IMG/VR virus record: IMGVR_UViG_3300027649_000002
Coordinates: 1-31,457 of that record
Length of the DNA stretch: 31,457 bases
Direction: 5' to 3' (one strand)
Origin: a virus
Below, piece by piece: positions 1,932 to 31,457 of this stretch. Position 1 is the first letter of the stretch, and every line of letters starts with the position of its first letter. The translations under genes and the position numbers were made by a program. The notes below the pieces were generated by a model, which was not told the DNA's origin, did no database searches, and saw only the letters and a list, made by a program, of their open reading frames with translations.

Positions 1932-2165
1932 TTATTTGTGCGTCAGGCGAGGGGGAATGTCAAGCGTCGCGCCGACTGTGACGCCTTCGCCCTGTTCCTG
2001 CCGGCAATGCGCCATCGCTGGCATCACGTTGTCAGCGCGTTTAATCTTGGGTCGTCCTCCGAGTTTGCCGTTAGCCCTAGCCGCTTTCGACTTTGCGGCG
2101 GTCTTGGCCTGGCCGCCCCGCCGCCCGATTGCGGCGAGGTAGTCTTTTGCGGCTTGGCTTACCAT
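1932..2165 (-). CDS. Small basic protein with RRGG/LGG (KGG-type) motifs
   Basis: A 77-residue basic protein. Start ATG 2165 overlaps the stop region of the upstream gene. Residues 12-42 (GRRGGQAKT, then KAARANGKLGGRPK) carry two glycine-pair basic motifs similar to the KGG or AT-hook-like repeats found in small bacterial stress and DNA-binding proteins. The remainder is uncharged. Nucleic-acid binding is an inference from charge and motif. A related motif occurs in the 49-residue protein at 9.9 kb. Confidence 0.75.
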   Translation of the reverse strand: MVSQAAKDYLAAIGRRGGQAKTAAKSKAARANGKLGGRPKIKRADNVMPAMAHCRQEQGEGVTVGATLDIPPRLTHK

Positions 2166-2362
2166 GTGGCGAGCCTCACAGAGTTTTTCTTGTGCTTGCC
2201 GGTGGCGGTCAGCTTGTTGGTGTATTCTCGGCCATTGACATAGAAGGAGAGGAAGCCGCCGAAGTTGTTCACGTCCCATGAGCGGACGTTGGTGATTTTG
2301 TCAGCGGTCACATTGAATTCCGCCGCGATTTTTTCGATTACTGCGTTGTTCGTTGTTGTCAT
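2159..2362 (-). CDS. Hypothetical protein, 67 aa
   Basis: A 67-residue protein starting at ATG 2362, ten bases after the stop of the preceding 35-residue ORF. The N-terminal 20 residues (IEKIAAEFNVTADKITNV) resemble a small helix-turn-helix or acyl-carrier-like helix pair; the rest is beta-type and basic. No family recognised. Confidence 0.75.
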   Translation of the reverse strand: MTTTNNAVIEKIAAEFNVTADKITNVRSWDVNNFGGFLSFYVNGREYTNKLTATGKHKKNSVRLATW

Positions 2363-2371
2363 GGTGTAAAT

Positions 2372-2479
2372 CTATATCCCAAGCCGCTTTGGTTCAAGCT
2401 TTATTTTCACAAAATCAGCAGTCTCTCCGTAACTCCTTGCCATTGCGCTGTTTCCGCTTGACGATTTATTGCGTTTCAT
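2372..2479 (-). CDS. Very small basic protein, 35 aa
   Basis: A 36-codon ORF (MKRNKSSSGNSAMARSYG start) whose ATG at 2479 overlaps the upstream TGA (ATGA). It is short, basic and of unknown function. It is supported by the coupled overlap and by filling what would otherwise be the only gap in this run of genes. The ORF also covers a weak promoter-like pair (TTGAAC, TATAGA) ahead of the next gene. Confidence 0.55.
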   Translation of the reverse strand: MKRNKSSSGNSAMARSYGETADFVKIKLEPKRLGI

Positions 2480-8585: not shown

Positions 8586-8914
8586 TTGGCACCCCCGTAA
8601 ATCCTTCTGACGTTGTTTTTCCAGTTGCGATTCCCCACGGGGTCGGCGGCAATCGGACACCACCGGTCTGCCATGTGGTCGATGAATTCGCCGGGTTTTC
8701 CCGCTTGTTCCCAGCGTGTCCAGTTGTTTCGGATGGAGACGAGGACGATGCGCCGAGCGTGGGCCTCGTCGCGCACCTTGACGCTTAGGACGCCGTATGG
8801 GCTGCGGGCTTTCGCGCCGCCCTCTGCTCGGTAGATCGCATCCGCCAGCCTCTCTGGGTCGGGATGGCCGGCGAGCGCGGGCAGAGCCGCGAATATTAGT
8901 ATGAGGTATTTCAT
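8582..8914 (-). CDS. Exported lysozyme/transglycosylase-like protein, candidate endolysin
   Basis: Residues 1-15 (MKYLILIFAALPALA) form a Sec signal peptide with an ALA cleavage site. The mature part has AIYRAEGGAKARSPYGVLSV with a candidate catalytic Glu31, then RIVLVSIRNNWTRW, FIDHMADRWCP and NRNWKNNV. I recall this layout from small conserved proteins of phages and prophages thought to cleave peptidoglycan, but I cannot name the family with certainty. Export by signal peptide would give a holin-independent endolysin. It sits in the early-type block rather than beside the membrane proteins at 12.9 kb. ATG 8914 overlaps the upstream TGA. Confidence 0.68.
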   Translation of the reverse strand: MKYLILIFAALPALAGHPDPERLADAIYRAEGGAKARSPYGVLSVKVRDEAHARRIVLVSIRNNWTRWEQAGKPGEFIDHMADRWCPIAADPVGNRNWKNNVRRIYGGAK

Positions 8915-9090
8915 TTAGCCTCCTTCGTTTTGGCGAGGGCGGCGCGGGCCTTTTGCGTGGCTGCATGGAGCAGGTCATACACGGGAGCCGCGCCGCCCAT
9001 TCGGTCGGCTATTGGTTCCAGCTCGGCAAGAGCGGCCCGCAACTCGTCGCGCTCGGCGAGGAGGTTGGTGATGTGTTCGAGTGTTGTCAT
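8911..9090 (-). CDS. Helical hypothetical protein, 59 aa
   Basis: Starts at ATG 9090. The protein is almost entirely helical (LLAERDELRAALAELEPIAD, then QKARAALAKTKEAK), likely a coiled coil. Its stop overlaps the start of the lysozyme-like gene, so the two are translated together. Possible partner or chaperone; unknown. Confidence 0.75.
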   Translation of the reverse strand: MTTLEHITNLLAERDELRAALAELEPIADRMGGAAPVYDLLHAATQKARAALAKTKEAK

Positions 9091-9104
9091 ATTTTTGTCA
9101 GTTT

Positions 9105-9130
9105 GGAGCGGCGAGTTCCCCCGCCGCCCC
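9105..9130. repeat. Intergenic hairpin repeat, copy 1
   Basis: Arms GGAGCGGCG and CGCCGCCCC with an 8-base loop, one mismatch. The 20 bases at 9098-9117 are identical to 9426-9445. The hairpin lies between the gene at 9138 and that at 9090, both read on the minus strand. No U-run follows in the direction of transcription. Confidence 0.8.
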
Positions 9131-9137
9131 GGTTGGT

Positions 9138-9416
9138 TTAGTCGGCGTAGTTGGTAGCCATCTGCTTCGACGTGAGTTTCTCAGACGACCAGTTGGCGTC
9201 AGTGAATACGCGGGCCACGCCCTTGATCCCGCGCTCGCGCATCCGGGCTAGGGTTGAACCAGCATCGGTGCCGACGGGCTTCACGTATTTGAAGCCCATC
9301 CTTTCGCCACCGCGAAAAAAGCCCAAGCGTTTGAGAATCGGCCCGACGGTTCCGTTTCCGCGAACGATTTGGAACCCCACCCAGCGATATTGATATTTGG
9401 AAATTTTCGTTTTCAT
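9138..9416 (-). CDS. Hypothetical basic protein, 92 aa
   Basis: A 92-residue basic protein (ISKYQYRWVGFQIVRGNG start). It has LGFFRGGERMGFKYV and a Ser/Thr-rich C-terminus. No family recognised. The gene is flanked by the two copies of an intergenic hairpin repeat, one before its start and one after its stop. Confidence 0.75.
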   Translation of the reverse strand: MKTKISKYQYRWVGFQIVRGNGTVGPILKRLGFFRGGERMGFKYVKPVGTDAGSTLARMRERGIKGVARVFTDANWSSEKLTSKQMATNYAD

Positions 9417-9432
9417 TTCGTTTTTTCAGTTT

Positions 9433-9458
9433 GGAGCGGCGAGTTTCCCCGCCGCTCC
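9433..9458. repeat. Intergenic hairpin repeat, copy 2
   Basis: Arms GGAGCGGCG and CGCCGCTCC pair perfectly over 9 bp with loop AGTTTCCC. It sits about 17 bases before the ATG of the 92-residue gene. Pairing in the minus-strand RNA could act on translation or on RNA processing between genes. Confidence 0.85.
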
Positions 9459-9463
9459 TGTGG

Positions 9464-9706
9464 TTACGCCGCCGCATGACCGGCTGCGGCCAAAGCCTTT
9501 AACACCGGGGCCATCGAATACCGGCCAGCGGGGAAGATAAATTCCACGTCATCTAAAACGTGAATTTTCACGCGCTTGGTCGAGTTCTGGAAACTGATTT
9601 TTGCGAAGCCGCCTTTGCGCTCAATTACCTGAGCGGAGAAAATGCAGTCGTGATCGCAAACGCTCCGGCCCGTCAGTGTGTCGCCCGTGTTGATTTTCGT
9701 TGTCAT
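9464..9706 (-). CDS. Hypothetical protein, 80 aa
   Basis: ATG 9706 (MTTKINTGDTLTGRSV) is chosen; an upstream in-frame start at 9763 has no support. The protein looks like a small beta-barrel: GDTLTGRSVCDHDCIFSAQVIERKGG is followed by KRVKIHV. Two Cys in CDHDC. Unknown function. It is the second gene after the divergent control region. Confidence 0.75.
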   Translation of the reverse strand: MTTKINTGDTLTGRSVCDHDCIFSAQVIERKGGFAKISFQNSTKRVKIHVLDDVEFIFPAGRYSMAPVLKALAAAGHAAA

Positions 9707-9827
9707 GCTATTTTTTGTTCTCGTCGGGTTACTGGCCCTTCGATGTGGACAAGGTAGAATCAAACGGGCTTTGTGTCTAGGGAAAAGTGAAGAAAAATAA
9801 AGATAGTTTTTACCCCTTGCGCTCCAA

Positions 9828-9977
9828 CTACTTGCACTGCTTCAAAATCGACTTTGCGCGGTGTTCTTCCCAGCGGCGAAGCTGTCCAGCGGACTTTTTC
9901 GGGGATTTCGACAGGCCACCTTTGCGCCCGCCGTTAACGATTTTGTTTCGGAATTCCGTCAGAAATTTCATGTTCAT
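9828..9977 (-). CDS. Small basic KGG-motif protein, candidate regulator, 49 aa
   Basis: A 49-residue very basic protein (MNMKFLTEFRNKIVNGGRKG start) with GGRKGGLSKSPKKSAGQLRRWEEHR, a KGG-type motif also seen in the 77-residue protein at 2.1 kb. It is the first gene read leftward from the divergent operator. The predicted transcription start is at or next to its ATG, so the mRNA would be leaderless, as for lambda cI made from its maintenance promoter. A second ATG at 9971 is possible. A DNA-binding role is inferred from charge and position. Confidence 0.7.
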   Translation of the reverse strand: MNMKFLTEFRNKIVNGGRKGGLSKSPKKSAGQLRRWEEHRAKSILKQCK

Positions 9978-9984
9978 TTTGCGG

Positions 9985-10013
9985 AGGTTAAGCAAAGGTC
10001 GTTTGATTGTCAA
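9985..10013 (-). promoter_or_regulatory. Minus-strand promoter for the leftward early genes
   Basis: Consensus TTGACA (10013-10008), a 17-bp spacer and TAACCT (9990-9985). The start point would fall around 9978, next to the ATG at 9977. This is the best sigma70-type match on the minus strand that I found. Its -35 lies in one arm of the operator-like inverted repeat. Confidence 0.65.
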
Positions 10014-10039
10014 GCGTGAGGCGGGGACAACGCTTGACA
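10008..10039. promoter_or_regulatory. Operator-like inverted repeat with two divergent -35 boxes
   Basis: Perfect 9-bp arms TGTCAAGCG (10008-10016) and CGCTTGACA (10031-10039), 14 bp apart. Each arm holds a consensus TTGACA reading outward, leftward for the early genes and rightward toward 10.05 kb. The rightward box lacks a good -10 (CAAATT at 17 bp). A dimeric regulator binding here would cover both -35 boxes at once. Confidence 0.65.
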
Positions 10040-10589
10040 CCGGCGGCGAGGTGGGGCAAATTGAGGGCGTGAAGATAGTCAGCCAAATTAAAATTTGCCT
10101 CAGCGGAAAAATGCCACACCCCGGCACCGCTGCTCACCAGACTGTCTTCACACGCTTCCGGTGCGACGAGGGCGGGGTTCCCTTTCCTGAAATCGTCATT
10201 CGCCACAAGGCGAGCGATTGCGGACTGCGCCGGAACACGGACAGCCCGTAGTCGTTCTTTGATACGCCTTTGTTGCGCGGTCTTTTGAGACCTTTCCGCC
10301 GCGCAGTTAAGCCGGGTGAAACCACCGGCGACAGAATAGAATGGATGATGCAGACGAGGCCCGTAAGCCTATTCCTACGGAGCCGTTATCAGTTGCATCG
10401 CGTGGTCGAAAGTGGGGAACTCAGGAAGCGGAGGCGATCAAAGACTACTTACAACTGTGCTGGGAGACCAGCGCAGGAAGGGTCTCCGTGGAGAATCTAA
10501 GAAGCGGTTGTTTCAAGACAGTTGAATCTGATTTATTCTGCTATAACCTGCCTCTTGTTTTCCATCCGCTACAATATAGAATCCAGAGA
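10040..10589. other. Control region with several inverted repeats and no firm gene
   Basis: A stretch of 550 bp between the leftward start and the plus-strand zinc-finger gene. It holds inverted repeats at 10274-10305 (7-bp arms TGCGCGG/CCGCGCA with an inner GGTCT/AGACC hairpin), 10311-10329 (GCCGG/CCGGC) and 10463-10487 (GGAGACC/GGTCTCC). Several ORFs of 60-75 codons exist on both strands, and a plus frame is open from 10341 through the zinc-finger gene. None has a ribosome site or a recognised domain. It may hold promoters, a regulatory RNA or an attachment or origin site. Confidence 0.5.
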
Positions 10590-10751
10590 ATGAATCGACC
10601 GCCCCTCAAATGCTCCGCGTGTGAAGCCCTAGCTGTCATCCTCTGGCAACCTGCCGACACAAGGGAGAAATCTCGGCCTTATTGCTCTGCGTGCTTGCCG
10701 CGTGCGCGAGAGGAAACGGCTTTGGTGATGGTGCCGCTGTTGAGACGGTAA
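10590..10751 (+). CDS. Mini zinc-finger protein, 53 aa (paralogue of 4477-4662)
   Basis: The protein has CSAC (residues 8-11) and CSAC (35-38), with AVILWQPADTRE between them and LP after the second pair. It aligns over its whole length with the minus-strand protein at 4.5 kb, where the second pair is CADH. The start ATG 10590 fits that length. The frame is open upstream to ATG 10341, so an 136-residue form is possible. Its 3' end overlaps the convergent gene at 10679 by 73 bases. It is one of very few plus-strand genes and lies beside the control region, so a regulatory role is likely but unproven. Confidence 0.65.
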   Translation: MNRPPLKCSACEALAVILWQPADTREKSRPYCSACLPRAREETALVMVPLLRR

Positions 10752-10978
10752 ACAAATTTTACGTGGCCGTTTCCGTTCCACTTCTCGCGGCATATTGCGC
10801 CCGCCTCGTAAGCCTCATTCAGCAGCCGGCCAGCCTGGGATGCGGACAGTTTGTGATCGGTCGCAAATTCGGTGGCGGTCACGGTGCCGGGCGGTCTCGG
10901 CGAGCGGCTCAGTTTCGCCGCAACCATCGCGGCGAATAATTGGGCCGAGGTTTTCGAGGTTAAATTGGAAGCTTCCAT
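10679..10978 (-). CDS. Winged-helix-like DNA-binding protein, 99 aa
   Basis: Residues 30-80 show TVTATEFATDHKLSASQAGRLLNEAYEAGAICREKW, a helix-turn-helix followed by a wing (GHVKFVYRL). It resembles MarR-like or LexA-type winged helices in size. It is the last gene of the minus-strand loop and lies next to the control region, so it could feed back on the divergent promoters. The ATG lies 19 bases inside the 3' end of the phosphoesterase gene. Confidence 0.72.
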   Translation of the reverse strand: MEASNLTSKTSAQLFAAMVAAKLSRSPRPPGTVTATEFATDHKLSASQAGRLLNEAYEAGAICREKWNGNGHVKFVYRLNSGTITKAVSSRARGKHAEQ

Positions 10979-11706
10979 GTTGTTTCAGTTCGTGGTTGTT
11001 CGTGCAGCCAGATTATAGCGCGGTCGTCGGTGTATTCGCCCCAAACAAATCCAGCCGACCAACTTAGCGTAGATCGCCGGGCCTTCGCGTAGTCCATGTT
11101 CGGAATGTTCGTCAAGGTGCCGACGCTGTAGCCGGTCGGATTATCCAGCCGCCGACCCTTCGCCATCCCGCAGCGGTGCGTGTGCGCGTGGACGACATTT
11201 CCGACCGATTCCGCGTGGTCGCGGGTTGCGTTCTCGCTGAACAAGTAACCGTGGCCGAATCGGTAATTGCCCAGCATACGCCAGCCGGTGATGAAATGCC
11301 ACGGGACGAGTTCGCATTTCAGCTTGGAGCACTTCATCTGGATTCGATTGAGAATTTCCGAGGCGCACATGGCGACGATAGCGTTGGTGCTGTTGACCAG
11401 TTTGAAAACTCTGTCCTCATGGTTGCCGGCGAAGTAAATTTTAGGGCGCAACTGCTCGATGAATTCCAGGCCGTCGTCGAGGTCGGGCAGGATCGGCTCC
11501 GATTCGTCGCTCGTCCCCTTGGCCCCTGAACGGAGCGCAGCGGTGTCAATAGCATCGCCGAGGTGAACGGTCGTGTCCGGCTTCCAAGCGTCCCTAAAGC
11601 GAAGGACGGCGGCAATGGCGGCAGGGTCGGCAAGGTTGCCGTGAGAGCAGCCCACCGCCATCAGCCGCTTCCATTTTCTAACAATTGCCGGCGAAGATGG
11701 TTTCAT
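10960..11706 (-). CDS. Calcineurin-like metallophosphoesterase with altered first motif
   Basis: ATG 11706 overlaps the upstream TGA (ATGA), giving 248 residues. The motifs of the family are in order: GCSHGN (19-24, normally with D-x-H), HLGDAID (48-54), FAGNHEDR (92-99), GHG (151-153) and VHAHTHR (172-178). The two-metal site would hydrolyse phosphoesters. The first motif lacks the usual Asp, with Cys20 in its place, which may change metal use. Substrate unknown; phage relatives act on nucleic acid ends or nucleotides. It sits at the end of the late genes. Confidence 0.85.
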   Translation of the reverse strand: MKPSSPAIVRKWKRLMAVGCSHGNLADPAAIAAVLRFRDAWKPDTTVHLGDAIDTAALRSGAKGTSDESEPILPDLDDGLEFIEQLRPKIYFAGNHEDRVFKLVNSTNAIVAMCASEILNRIQMKCSKLKCELVPWHFITGWRMLGNYRFGHGYLFSENATRDHAESVGNVVHAHTHRCGMAKGRRLDNPTGYSVGTLTNIPNMDYAKARRSTLSWSAGFVWGEYTDDRAIIWLHEQPRTETTWKLPI

Positions 11707-11876
11707 TTTTTTCCTTTGTTTTTGGGGAGGAACCGGCACTTCCACCCGCAGGCCGTGAACAGAGTTTGCAAGATGTTGCCCGCGTCAGAACCGCGCTGAA
11801 ACCAAATAACGCCATCGCGCATTTCGATGGTCGTTGTGCAGACTTTACTTTTTGGCGTCGATGGCTTTGATGGCAT
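11703..11876 (-). CDS. Small hypothetical protein, about 57 aa (start uncertain)
   Basis: The frame ends in TGA overlapping the phosphoesterase start. ATG 11876 gives 57 residues; ATG 11822 gives 39. The first overlaps the preceding gene by about 30 bases. The sequence MRDGVIWFQRGSDAGNILQT looks like a compact domain, with a Lys-rich end (PKNKGKK). Function unknown. Confidence 0.5.
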   Translation of the reverse strand: MPSKPSTPKSKVCTTTIEMRDGVIWFQRGSDAGNILQTLFTACGWKCRFLPKNKGKK

Positions 11877-23092: not shown

Positions 23093-23416
23093 TCATTTAG
23101 GATTTGCCCCGTTCGCCAGCATCATCGTTACCAACGGATTCTCCGCGCTGGCCCGCACCGTGCCGACGATGTAGTTGACGCCGGCCACGGTGACGTTGCG
23201 ACCTTGCACCGGAGCCGTAGCTAGGTCGTCGGCAAGATAGTTCACGCTGGCCGAGTATTCGCTGAACAAGCCACCGTCTGACGGCGTGCTGCCCTTGGTG
23301 ATGCGATTGAACACGCACGGAACCGCGGTGCCTGCGTAGGTGAACGACTGGCTTCCGCTTGTCGTGATCGTCTCACGAAATGCGGCGATGAAATCGGCAA
23401 AAATTGCAGCGGCCAT
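23093..23416 (-). CDS. Head-tail joining protein candidate, 107 aa
   Basis: A 107-residue beta-rich protein (FADFIAAFRETITTSGSQSF start, later GRNVTVAGVNYIVGTVRASA). Position directly after the coat gene and size fit lambda FII-type connector proteins. No motif proves this. Stop is followed one base later by the ATG of the next gene. Confidence 0.6.
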   Translation of the reverse strand: MAAAIFADFIAAFRETITTSGSQSFTYAGTAVPCVFNRITKGSTPSDGGLFSEYSASVNYLADDLATAPVQGRNVTVAGVNYIVGTVRASAENPLVTMMLANGANPK

Positions 23417-23478
23417 AATTAAAAACCCCGCCCCCGGTTTCCCAGAGGCGGGGATGAAACAACACGAACCAAAATTTG

Positions 23479-24633
23479 TTAGCCGATGATGCCGGCCACG
23501 TGCTCAGGCTTCACAACGGAAACGCCCCATGCACAGGCGATCTCGAAATGCACCATGCGGAAGCCGGGATACATTGCGAGTTCAAACGAGATTCCGCTGC
23601 GAGGGTCGGTGATGGTCGCACGATCAATCGCAAGGTCATTCGGGACGCTGGCCGGAAGGCGAGTCGAGAGGACGATGGCGTTGCGGCTGAAGGCCACGTT
23701 GCGGGCCGAGGTGCCGAAGACCGTGATGGCCGCGTTATCGGCAACCGCAGCCTGAAGGCCGGGAGCATTGATCACAATCGTGCCGCTGGCCGAGGTCGAG
23801 CCGGTCGCAACCACATATTTCTGCGCTCCACCAGTCGTGCCGGTGATGCTCAGAATGTCGCCAGCAACAATGCCGGTGGTGTTGACGGTGCCGGTGTCGA
23901 ACGTAATGGTGGTGTCGCCAACCGCGCCCGCGCCGTTGAACAACGCGCCGGTCATTGCGCCCGCCGTGGTGGACTGGATCTTCGCGGACTGGCGAAGGTT
24001 GAAGTTGTAGAGGTCGCCGAGCGTTCCCTGACGGAGCAAGTTGCCGCCGTCGCCGGCCTCGTTGACTTTGTAGAGGTTGGAGGTGCTGCGAAGAGCCACG
24101 GCAGCGGTCGTGTTGAACACAGCCGAACGGTCAGAAGAGGGTGCTCCGTTGTCGTCGAGGATTTTCTGGGCCTGCGCGAAATCGGCGAGAACCGGCGCGG
24201 TGCCAGCAGTTGCACCGAAGAAACGGCTGACGCCATTTTTCGCAGCCACGGCGCAATCGACTTCGATTTCGTTCACGGCGGCGCGGATGGCCTGCGCGAT
24301 CTGGCCCTGCTGCAACGACAGATAACCGGGGCCGTTGTTCACGGACTTAATTTCTTCCTGCGTCCAAGAGAACGGAAAAGCCCGCTGCTTAGAAATGCTG
24401 TGCGTAACATAACCGATAGTCTGGTAAGCCGCCGACGGGAAGCTCATCGCCGGGGTAATGTCTTTGCCGGCAGAGTTAGAAGGCGTGATCGGAATGCGAA
24501 TGTTTTGGTTTGCGGCGATGGTGTCAGCGGACGGGTCAAGCTGAACGGCTGGAATGAATCCGACCAGTTCGCGGGAGACAACATCCAAAGCGCGGTAAGC
24601 GTCTGGAATCAAATTTGTAAGAGTGTTAGGCAT
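23479..24633 (-). CDS. Major capsid protein, P22 coat type
   Basis: A 384-residue protein. N-terminus MPNTLTNLIPDAYRALDVVS and the segment QNIRIPITP match the P22 gp5 coat family (arm, then the early strand). The middle contains a Gly/Thr-rich insertion (residues about 225-315: AGDILSITGTTGGAQKYVVA and neighbours), likely the I-domain position. The C-terminus (ISFELAMYPGFRMVHFEIAC) fits the P-domain. Slightly shorter than the 430 residues of P22. It would assemble with the scaffold candidate upstream. The leader before ATG is A/T-rich without a Shine-Dalgarno site. Confidence 0.85.
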   Translation of the reverse strand: MPNTLTNLIPDAYRALDVVSRELVGFIPAVQLDPSADTIAANQNIRIPITPSNSAGKDITPAMSFPSAAYQTIGYVTHSISKQRAFPFSWTQEEIKSVNNGPGYLSLQQGQIAQAIRAAVNEIEVDCAVAAKNGVSRFFGATAGTAPVLADFAQAQKILDDNGAPSSDRSAVFNTTAAVALRSTSNLYKVNEAGDGGNLLRQGTLGDLYNFNLRQSAKIQSTTAGAMTGALFNGAGAVGDTTITFDTGTVNTTGIVAGDILSITGTTGGAQKYVVATGSTSASGTIVINAPGLQAAVADNAAITVFGTSARNVAFSRNAIVLSTRLPASVPNDLAIDRATITDPRSGISFELAMYPGFRMVHFEIACAWGVSVVKPEHVAGIIG

Positions 24634-31221: not shown

Positions 31222-31228
31222 TGGTTAT

Positions 31229-31457
31229 TCAGGTCGTGAACTCATGTTTGCACGCGGGACAACTGATCGGTTTCTTTTGGTCAAGCCGTCCTTGCTCTTC
31301 TGCGGTTGCCGGCTGGAAGTCTGGCGGTTGGTAAAAATTTATGACCCGCTCTAACTCACCCGCATCAAACCCGGTCACGTCCATGTCATACGCTCCGGTG
31401 TCGAGGTCGCCGAGAATGTCTTTGAGCATGGCGCCGTCGGTTTCCGCAAGCTCGGCA
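31229..31457 (-). CDS. ParB-like nuclease-domain protein, C-terminal part
   Basis: Codons 120-180 of the gene described at positions 1-357, with the 43-bp terminal repeat included at its right end. The part reads through LGDLDTGAYDMDVTGFDAGE and ends in a single CPACKH knuckle and FTT. It stops seven bases before the start of the small terminase gene, so ParB-like, small and large terminase genes are in one transcript. Confidence 0.85.
   Translation of the reverse strand, partial: AELAETDGAMLKDILGDLDTGAYDMDVTGFDAGELERVINFYQPPDFQPATAEEQGRLDQKKPISCPACKHEFTT
31415..31457. repeat. Right copy of 43-bp terminal direct repeat
   Basis: Identical to positions 1-43, inside the ParB-like gene. It marks the closure point of the circular sequence. 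Confidence 0.97.

Follow-up and report, generated by a model that had tools for sequence, protein, structure and literature searches.

The TTGACA-bearing site at 9985-10013 is read here, with a probability of roughly 0.8, as the promoter from which a small phage with a circular map expresses its early genes; this promoter would begin its message without a leader, and its palindromic spacer is likely to be the site of a regulator. The window, by which we mean the whole stretch of 31,457 nucleotides analysed, is a viral record that carries an exact 43-bp terminal repeat (1-43 and 31415-31457); because this repeat joins both ends, the record very likely represents a whole genome, 31,414 bp long, with a circular map. 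Every annotated gene lies on the minus strand, running in the order terminase, portal, protease, capsid, tail, phosphoesterase, small winged-helix-like protein and a 700-bp gap (the names of the structural genes coming partly from a reading of their sequences), with the early genes then following from 9977 downward as KGG-type protein, ERF recombinase, PolB-type exonuclease and DnaC-like loader. The promoter and an inverted repeat form the end of this gap, directly ahead of the early genes. The host is probably a member of the Verrucomicrobiota, an assignment whose sole basis is the weak similarity of the terminase to those of several phages, Akkermansia and Verrucomicrobia phages among them; Shine-Dalgarno-like sequences are scarce (8 of 40 starts under a lax pattern), in agreement with the scarcity of such sequences in some Verrucomicrobiota such as Akkermansia (PMC10783764). 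The features on which the argument turns are these.

10960-11745: phosphoesterase
10679-10978, minus strand: small winged-helix-like protein; similar small proteins directly follow the phosphoesterase in most relatives
10008-10013, minus strand: -35 box TTGACA of the leftward early promoter
9991-10007, minus strand: 17-nt spacer ATCAAACGACCTTTGCT, a dyad with 6 of 8 pairs (shuffle p 0.005) and candidate operator
9985-9990, minus strand: -10 box TAACCT, of the TANNNT type
9977-9980, minus strand: predicted transcription start, at or no more than 3 nt from the ATG, placed from the fixed -10-to-ATG spacing in relatives
9828-9977, minus strand: 49-aa basic KGG-type protein, first early gene (profile E 1.2e-4; hhalign E 9.6e-5)

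The leftward site has the architecture TTGACA-N17-TAACCT-N7-ATG, with the ATG at 9977, and the exact 17-bp spacer that the original prediction had assigned to it is confirmed at 10007-9991. By E. coli standards TAACCT is a weak -10 box (3 of 6 matches), but it matches the TANNNT found after intergenic TTGACA in related loci, such a hexamer occurring 16-18 nt after TTGACA in 30% of intergenic versus 5% of coding instances. A weight matrix built from seven relatives only, with the window left out, gave the leftward site as the best match in the window (21.5 bits, the runner-up reaching 7.7), whereas the best score on 60 random windows was 15.5 bits.

The relatives on which this comparison draws are distant, the identity of their phosphoesterases being mostly 46-50%. 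When the position of complete promoters relative to start codons was surveyed over all of the 80 viral loci retrieved by alignment of phosphoesterase relatives, the number of full promoters in upstream regions peaked at a -10-to-ATG distance of 6 (6 of 18). Eight non-redundant relatives carry T(T/A)GACA-N16-TANNNT-N5/6-ATG downstream of the phosphoesterase, at a distance of 1124-1162 bp as against 949 bp in the window; the window further deviates from them in its spacer (17 versus 16) and in the interval from -10 box to start codon (7 nt versus 5-6 nt). The first gene behind the promoter varies, being of the KGG type in L023 and L041 and encoding other proteins in the remaining relatives, and since the distance from promoter to ATG is fixed though this gene changes, the message apparently starts at the start codon itself. 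We regard this as strong indirect evidence for leaderless early transcription conserved across phages with a changing first gene, and the relatives support two parts of the original prediction, a leaderless mRNA for the KGG-type gene and a real leftward promoter in front of the early genes.

Additional searches bear on how far the comparison extends. The two relatives found through the terminase, L086 and L087 (the DNA of the latter up to 93-95% identical), have sequences that stop short of the promoter site; a phage DNA collection gave no match to 9800-11000; relatives sought through the KGG protein and through the protein at 9464-9703 were not found; and a search with the promoter pattern recovered L023 and L025 again, together with three matches resembling chance.

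In the mechanism that we propose, a host-type RNA polymerase would bind TTGACA (10013-10008) and TAACCT (9990-9985), transcription would begin at the ATG (9977) or no more than about 3 nt away from it, and the 49-aa first gene would be translated from an mRNA that has no leader, in line with the rare use of Shine-Dalgarno sequences by this phage. The product of this gene is a short Lys/Arg-rich protein with the motif GRxGGxxKSxKK that matched no Pfam or PHROG family. When a profile made from the KGG proteins of twelve relatives was searched among the 203 ORFs of the window, exactly two proteins scored at E below 0.01, the second of which is located behind a second promoter of the leaderless type. 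In the window and in relatives, a KGG-type gene stands first or almost first among the early genes.

1932-2279, minus strand: ORF with the second KGG-type protein (profile E 2.7e-14), its real start probably downstream of 2279
2363-2397, minus strand: second leaderless-type promoter, TTGAAC-N17-TAGATT-N6-ATG, before gene 2159-2362

The spacer of the early promoter is palindromic about its centre in the window and in all eight relatives, with 5-6 of 8 pairs and a shuffle p of 0.002-0.044 in each. Its sequence differs between phages (of the type GCAAAGC..GCTTTGG in some and ACCAGCC..GGCTGGC in others), and because the symmetry stays while the sequence changes, the dyad suggests a putative operator. 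An RNA stem in the spacer would be unexpected, since the RNA starts downstream of it, unless upstream transcripts read through. A dimeric regulator would then bind the palindromic spacer and thereby control entry into early transcription. Across eight phages the spacer dyad does not correlate with the winged-helix protein or with the KGG protein (Mantel r -0.05 and -0.20), so that neither of them can be named as its reader. An operator array was also considered and rejected, the 17-bp palindrome CGTTTGATTGTCAAGCG at 10000-10016 having a single copy in the window.

The -35 box of this promoter is at the same time part of a larger inverted repeat.

10008-10039, no strand assigned: inverted repeat with arms at 10008-10017 and 10030-10039 and a 12-nt loop
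10034-10039, plus strand: rightward TTGACA; it has no -10 box and is unlikely to be a promoter

The arms, TGTCAAGCGT (10008-10017) and ACGCTTGACA (10030-10039), are fully complementary over 10 bp; the outward-facing TTGACA that had been described in each of them stands, and their length is to be corrected from the 9 bp given originally. About one 10-bp inverted repeat with a gap of 3-30 is expected by chance per window of the same composition, so that the repeat alone is ordinary; for two divergent TTGACA boxes no more than about 40 bp apart, the expectation is 0.1 per window. The placement of the repeat on a promoter is not easily put down to chance, only about 0.001 such repeats being expected at 20 bp or less from any one -35 box, although this placement was picked after the fact. 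The search for the same repeat in related phages went against the original prediction, in that the flanking genes are conserved in these distant relatives but the repeat is not, the longest arms near their promoters measuring 4-7 bp; this is the outcome that the prediction itself had named as refuting it.

Two accounts of the outer repeat have to be weighed against this background. According to the first, the repeat is a coincidence around a -35 box and has no function of its own; its lack of conservation and the one such repeat expected per window speak for this account, the exact position on the promoter was improbable a priori, albeit chosen post hoc, and we put its chances at a little short of even. 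According to the second, the repeat is itself an operator, with a regulator on two half-sites that blocks the -35 box and makes of the region a true genetic switch. The half-site centres lie 22 bp apart, or two helix turns, and perfect 10-bp arms centred near a -35 box are the roughly one-in-a-thousand event mentioned above. A scan for exact copies of the arms in a viral contig collection (2-30 nt between them) returned three contigs, of which L006 has its match within a gene, while L007 and L008, from phages that appear unrelated, have theirs between divergent promoter-like sequences; L007 and the window have 18 nt in common (CGTTTGATTGTCAAGCGT). The three matches are a lead only, about one being expected by chance on a rough estimate. 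The arms are absent in the relatives that have the same promoter, and neither a repressor nor an integrase was found in the window; we consider an operator role for the outer repeat doubtful, if conceivable. In keeping with the preferred reading, that of an early promoter with a palindromic spacer, the outer repeat would be specific to this lineage, either as an accessory operator half or by chance, and would make no second promoter.

The claim of two divergent promoters is likewise left unsupported, because the right TTGACA lacks a -10 box (no TANNNT at spacings 14-20), and on that side the plus strand has no coding-like gene. What lies beyond the right arm is nevertheless of relevance to an alternative in which this arm drives a structured non-coding RNA and possibly the ORF at 10341-10751.

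10040-10340, plus strand: non-coding stretch with a predicted stable fold (fold stability against shuffles, z -4.0 on the plus and -1.9 on the minus strand)

The strand asymmetry of this fold and the non-coding appearance of the stretch would fit such a transcript. Against it, besides the missing -10 box, stand the absence of an Rfam match for 10040-10340, the somewhat raised fold signal that sliding windows and adjoining windows give on both strands in this area, and the ORF at 10341-10751, whose score is that of non-coding DNA and for which neither the loci nor the phage records gave a relative; we judge a divergent pair to be very improbable. Within the latter ORF, a small plus-strand frame at 10590-10751 has a CxxC...CxxC pattern, a non-coding codon score and no relatives found.

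Whether the site may be called the genetic switch of the phage, as the original prediction proposed, is a matter that we treat as a hypothesis. Searches of the window proteins against Pfam (and of the first ten against PHROGs) and against the integrase of relatives returned no repressor or integrase, a negative that leaves room for unrecognised families. The dyads in the spacers of nine promoters are operator-like palindromes placed on the promoter, candidate binding sites; a more far-reaching proposal, in which the lysis/lysogeny or early/late decision would be run by a promoter that is leaderless and has a palindromic spacer, through a regulator (KGG-type or small winged-helix) outside the known repressor families, its operator diverging in the manner of an immunity type, seems to us unlikely.

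Leaderless phage regulatory mRNAs are already known, and the promoter described here would be a variant of them. In PY54, the cro and cI promoters give mRNAs that lack a leader and begin with the AUG, and a palindromic operator of 16 bp lies nearby (PMC4488713); the present case resembles it in being a promoter of a phage regulatory region with a palindrome close by and a predicted leaderless start, and differs from it in that PY54 has a divergent promoter pair and the known repressors CI and Cro, whereas the evidence here supports a single promoter, followed by a first gene of the KGG type that is no HTH repressor. The mRNA of lambda cI, a phage regulatory gene, likewise opens with its first codon (as cited in PMC4488713), which is what we predict for the first gene here, but no CI-like protein or multi-operator array of the lambda kind was found. 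The placing of a -10 box just ahead of the start codon of a leaderless gene is shared with Deinococcus, in which TANNNT directly before ORFs is common (PMC12340547), and with leaderless genes in bacteria (PMC3160421); unlike these, the promoter has a good -35 box and a palindromic spacer and belongs to phages of probable Verrucomicrobiota hosts. Our search of the literature found no described regulation for these uncultured phages, whose hosts are probably Verrucomicrobiota; the present analysis gives the group a testable early promoter and a candidate operator.

The comparison also points to a structured element ahead of the promoter. Immediately upstream of the early promoter, relatives have a conserved 76-nt structured element (CCGTATGGTGCGCAGGGAGAGCCTGCGACGGGG...GAAACAAAGGCACTTGC) with compensatory changes, seen in L023 (L023:9788-9864), L024, L035, L039, L041, L065, L075 and L078; it occurs as well in L027, L029, L030, L031, L036, L043 and L070, and more weakly in L016 and L028. 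The L078 copy has no Rfam match, and a model of the element finds no match in the window, which in this too departs from its relatives. In L027 (L027:9911-10144), L029, L030, L031, L036, L043 and L070 the slot of the first gene is taken by what weak database similarity marks as a Cro-like HTH gene, and in most of these a palindrome, TGCGTACAATACGCA, covers the -10 box. The slot is the same and stands behind the same 76-nt element, but the first gene there is HTH-like and not leaderless, in contrast to the KGG-type gene of the window. The element has a bearing on the outer repeat too, which might fold into a hairpin in late transcripts that read through and thereby terminate or process them ahead of the early promoter, much as the structured element in the same place of relatives may do; given that the repeat has no T-run, was not called a terminator and is not matched by the model of the element, we consider this improbable.

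Other structured or variable stretches were observed elsewhere in the window. Two copies of a 41-nt hairpin-forming repeat (9093-9133 and 9421-9461, 90% identical) each lie just ahead of a gene start (genes 8911-9090 and 9138-9416). Beside the terminase, the close relative L086 has about 3 kb (L086:494-3460) where the window has some 110 bp (31226-31336). The top fold signal of the window, with a z of -5.6, lies on the minus strand at 23401-23600, where a GC-rich hairpin and a T-run before gene 23093-23416 probably constitute a terminator.
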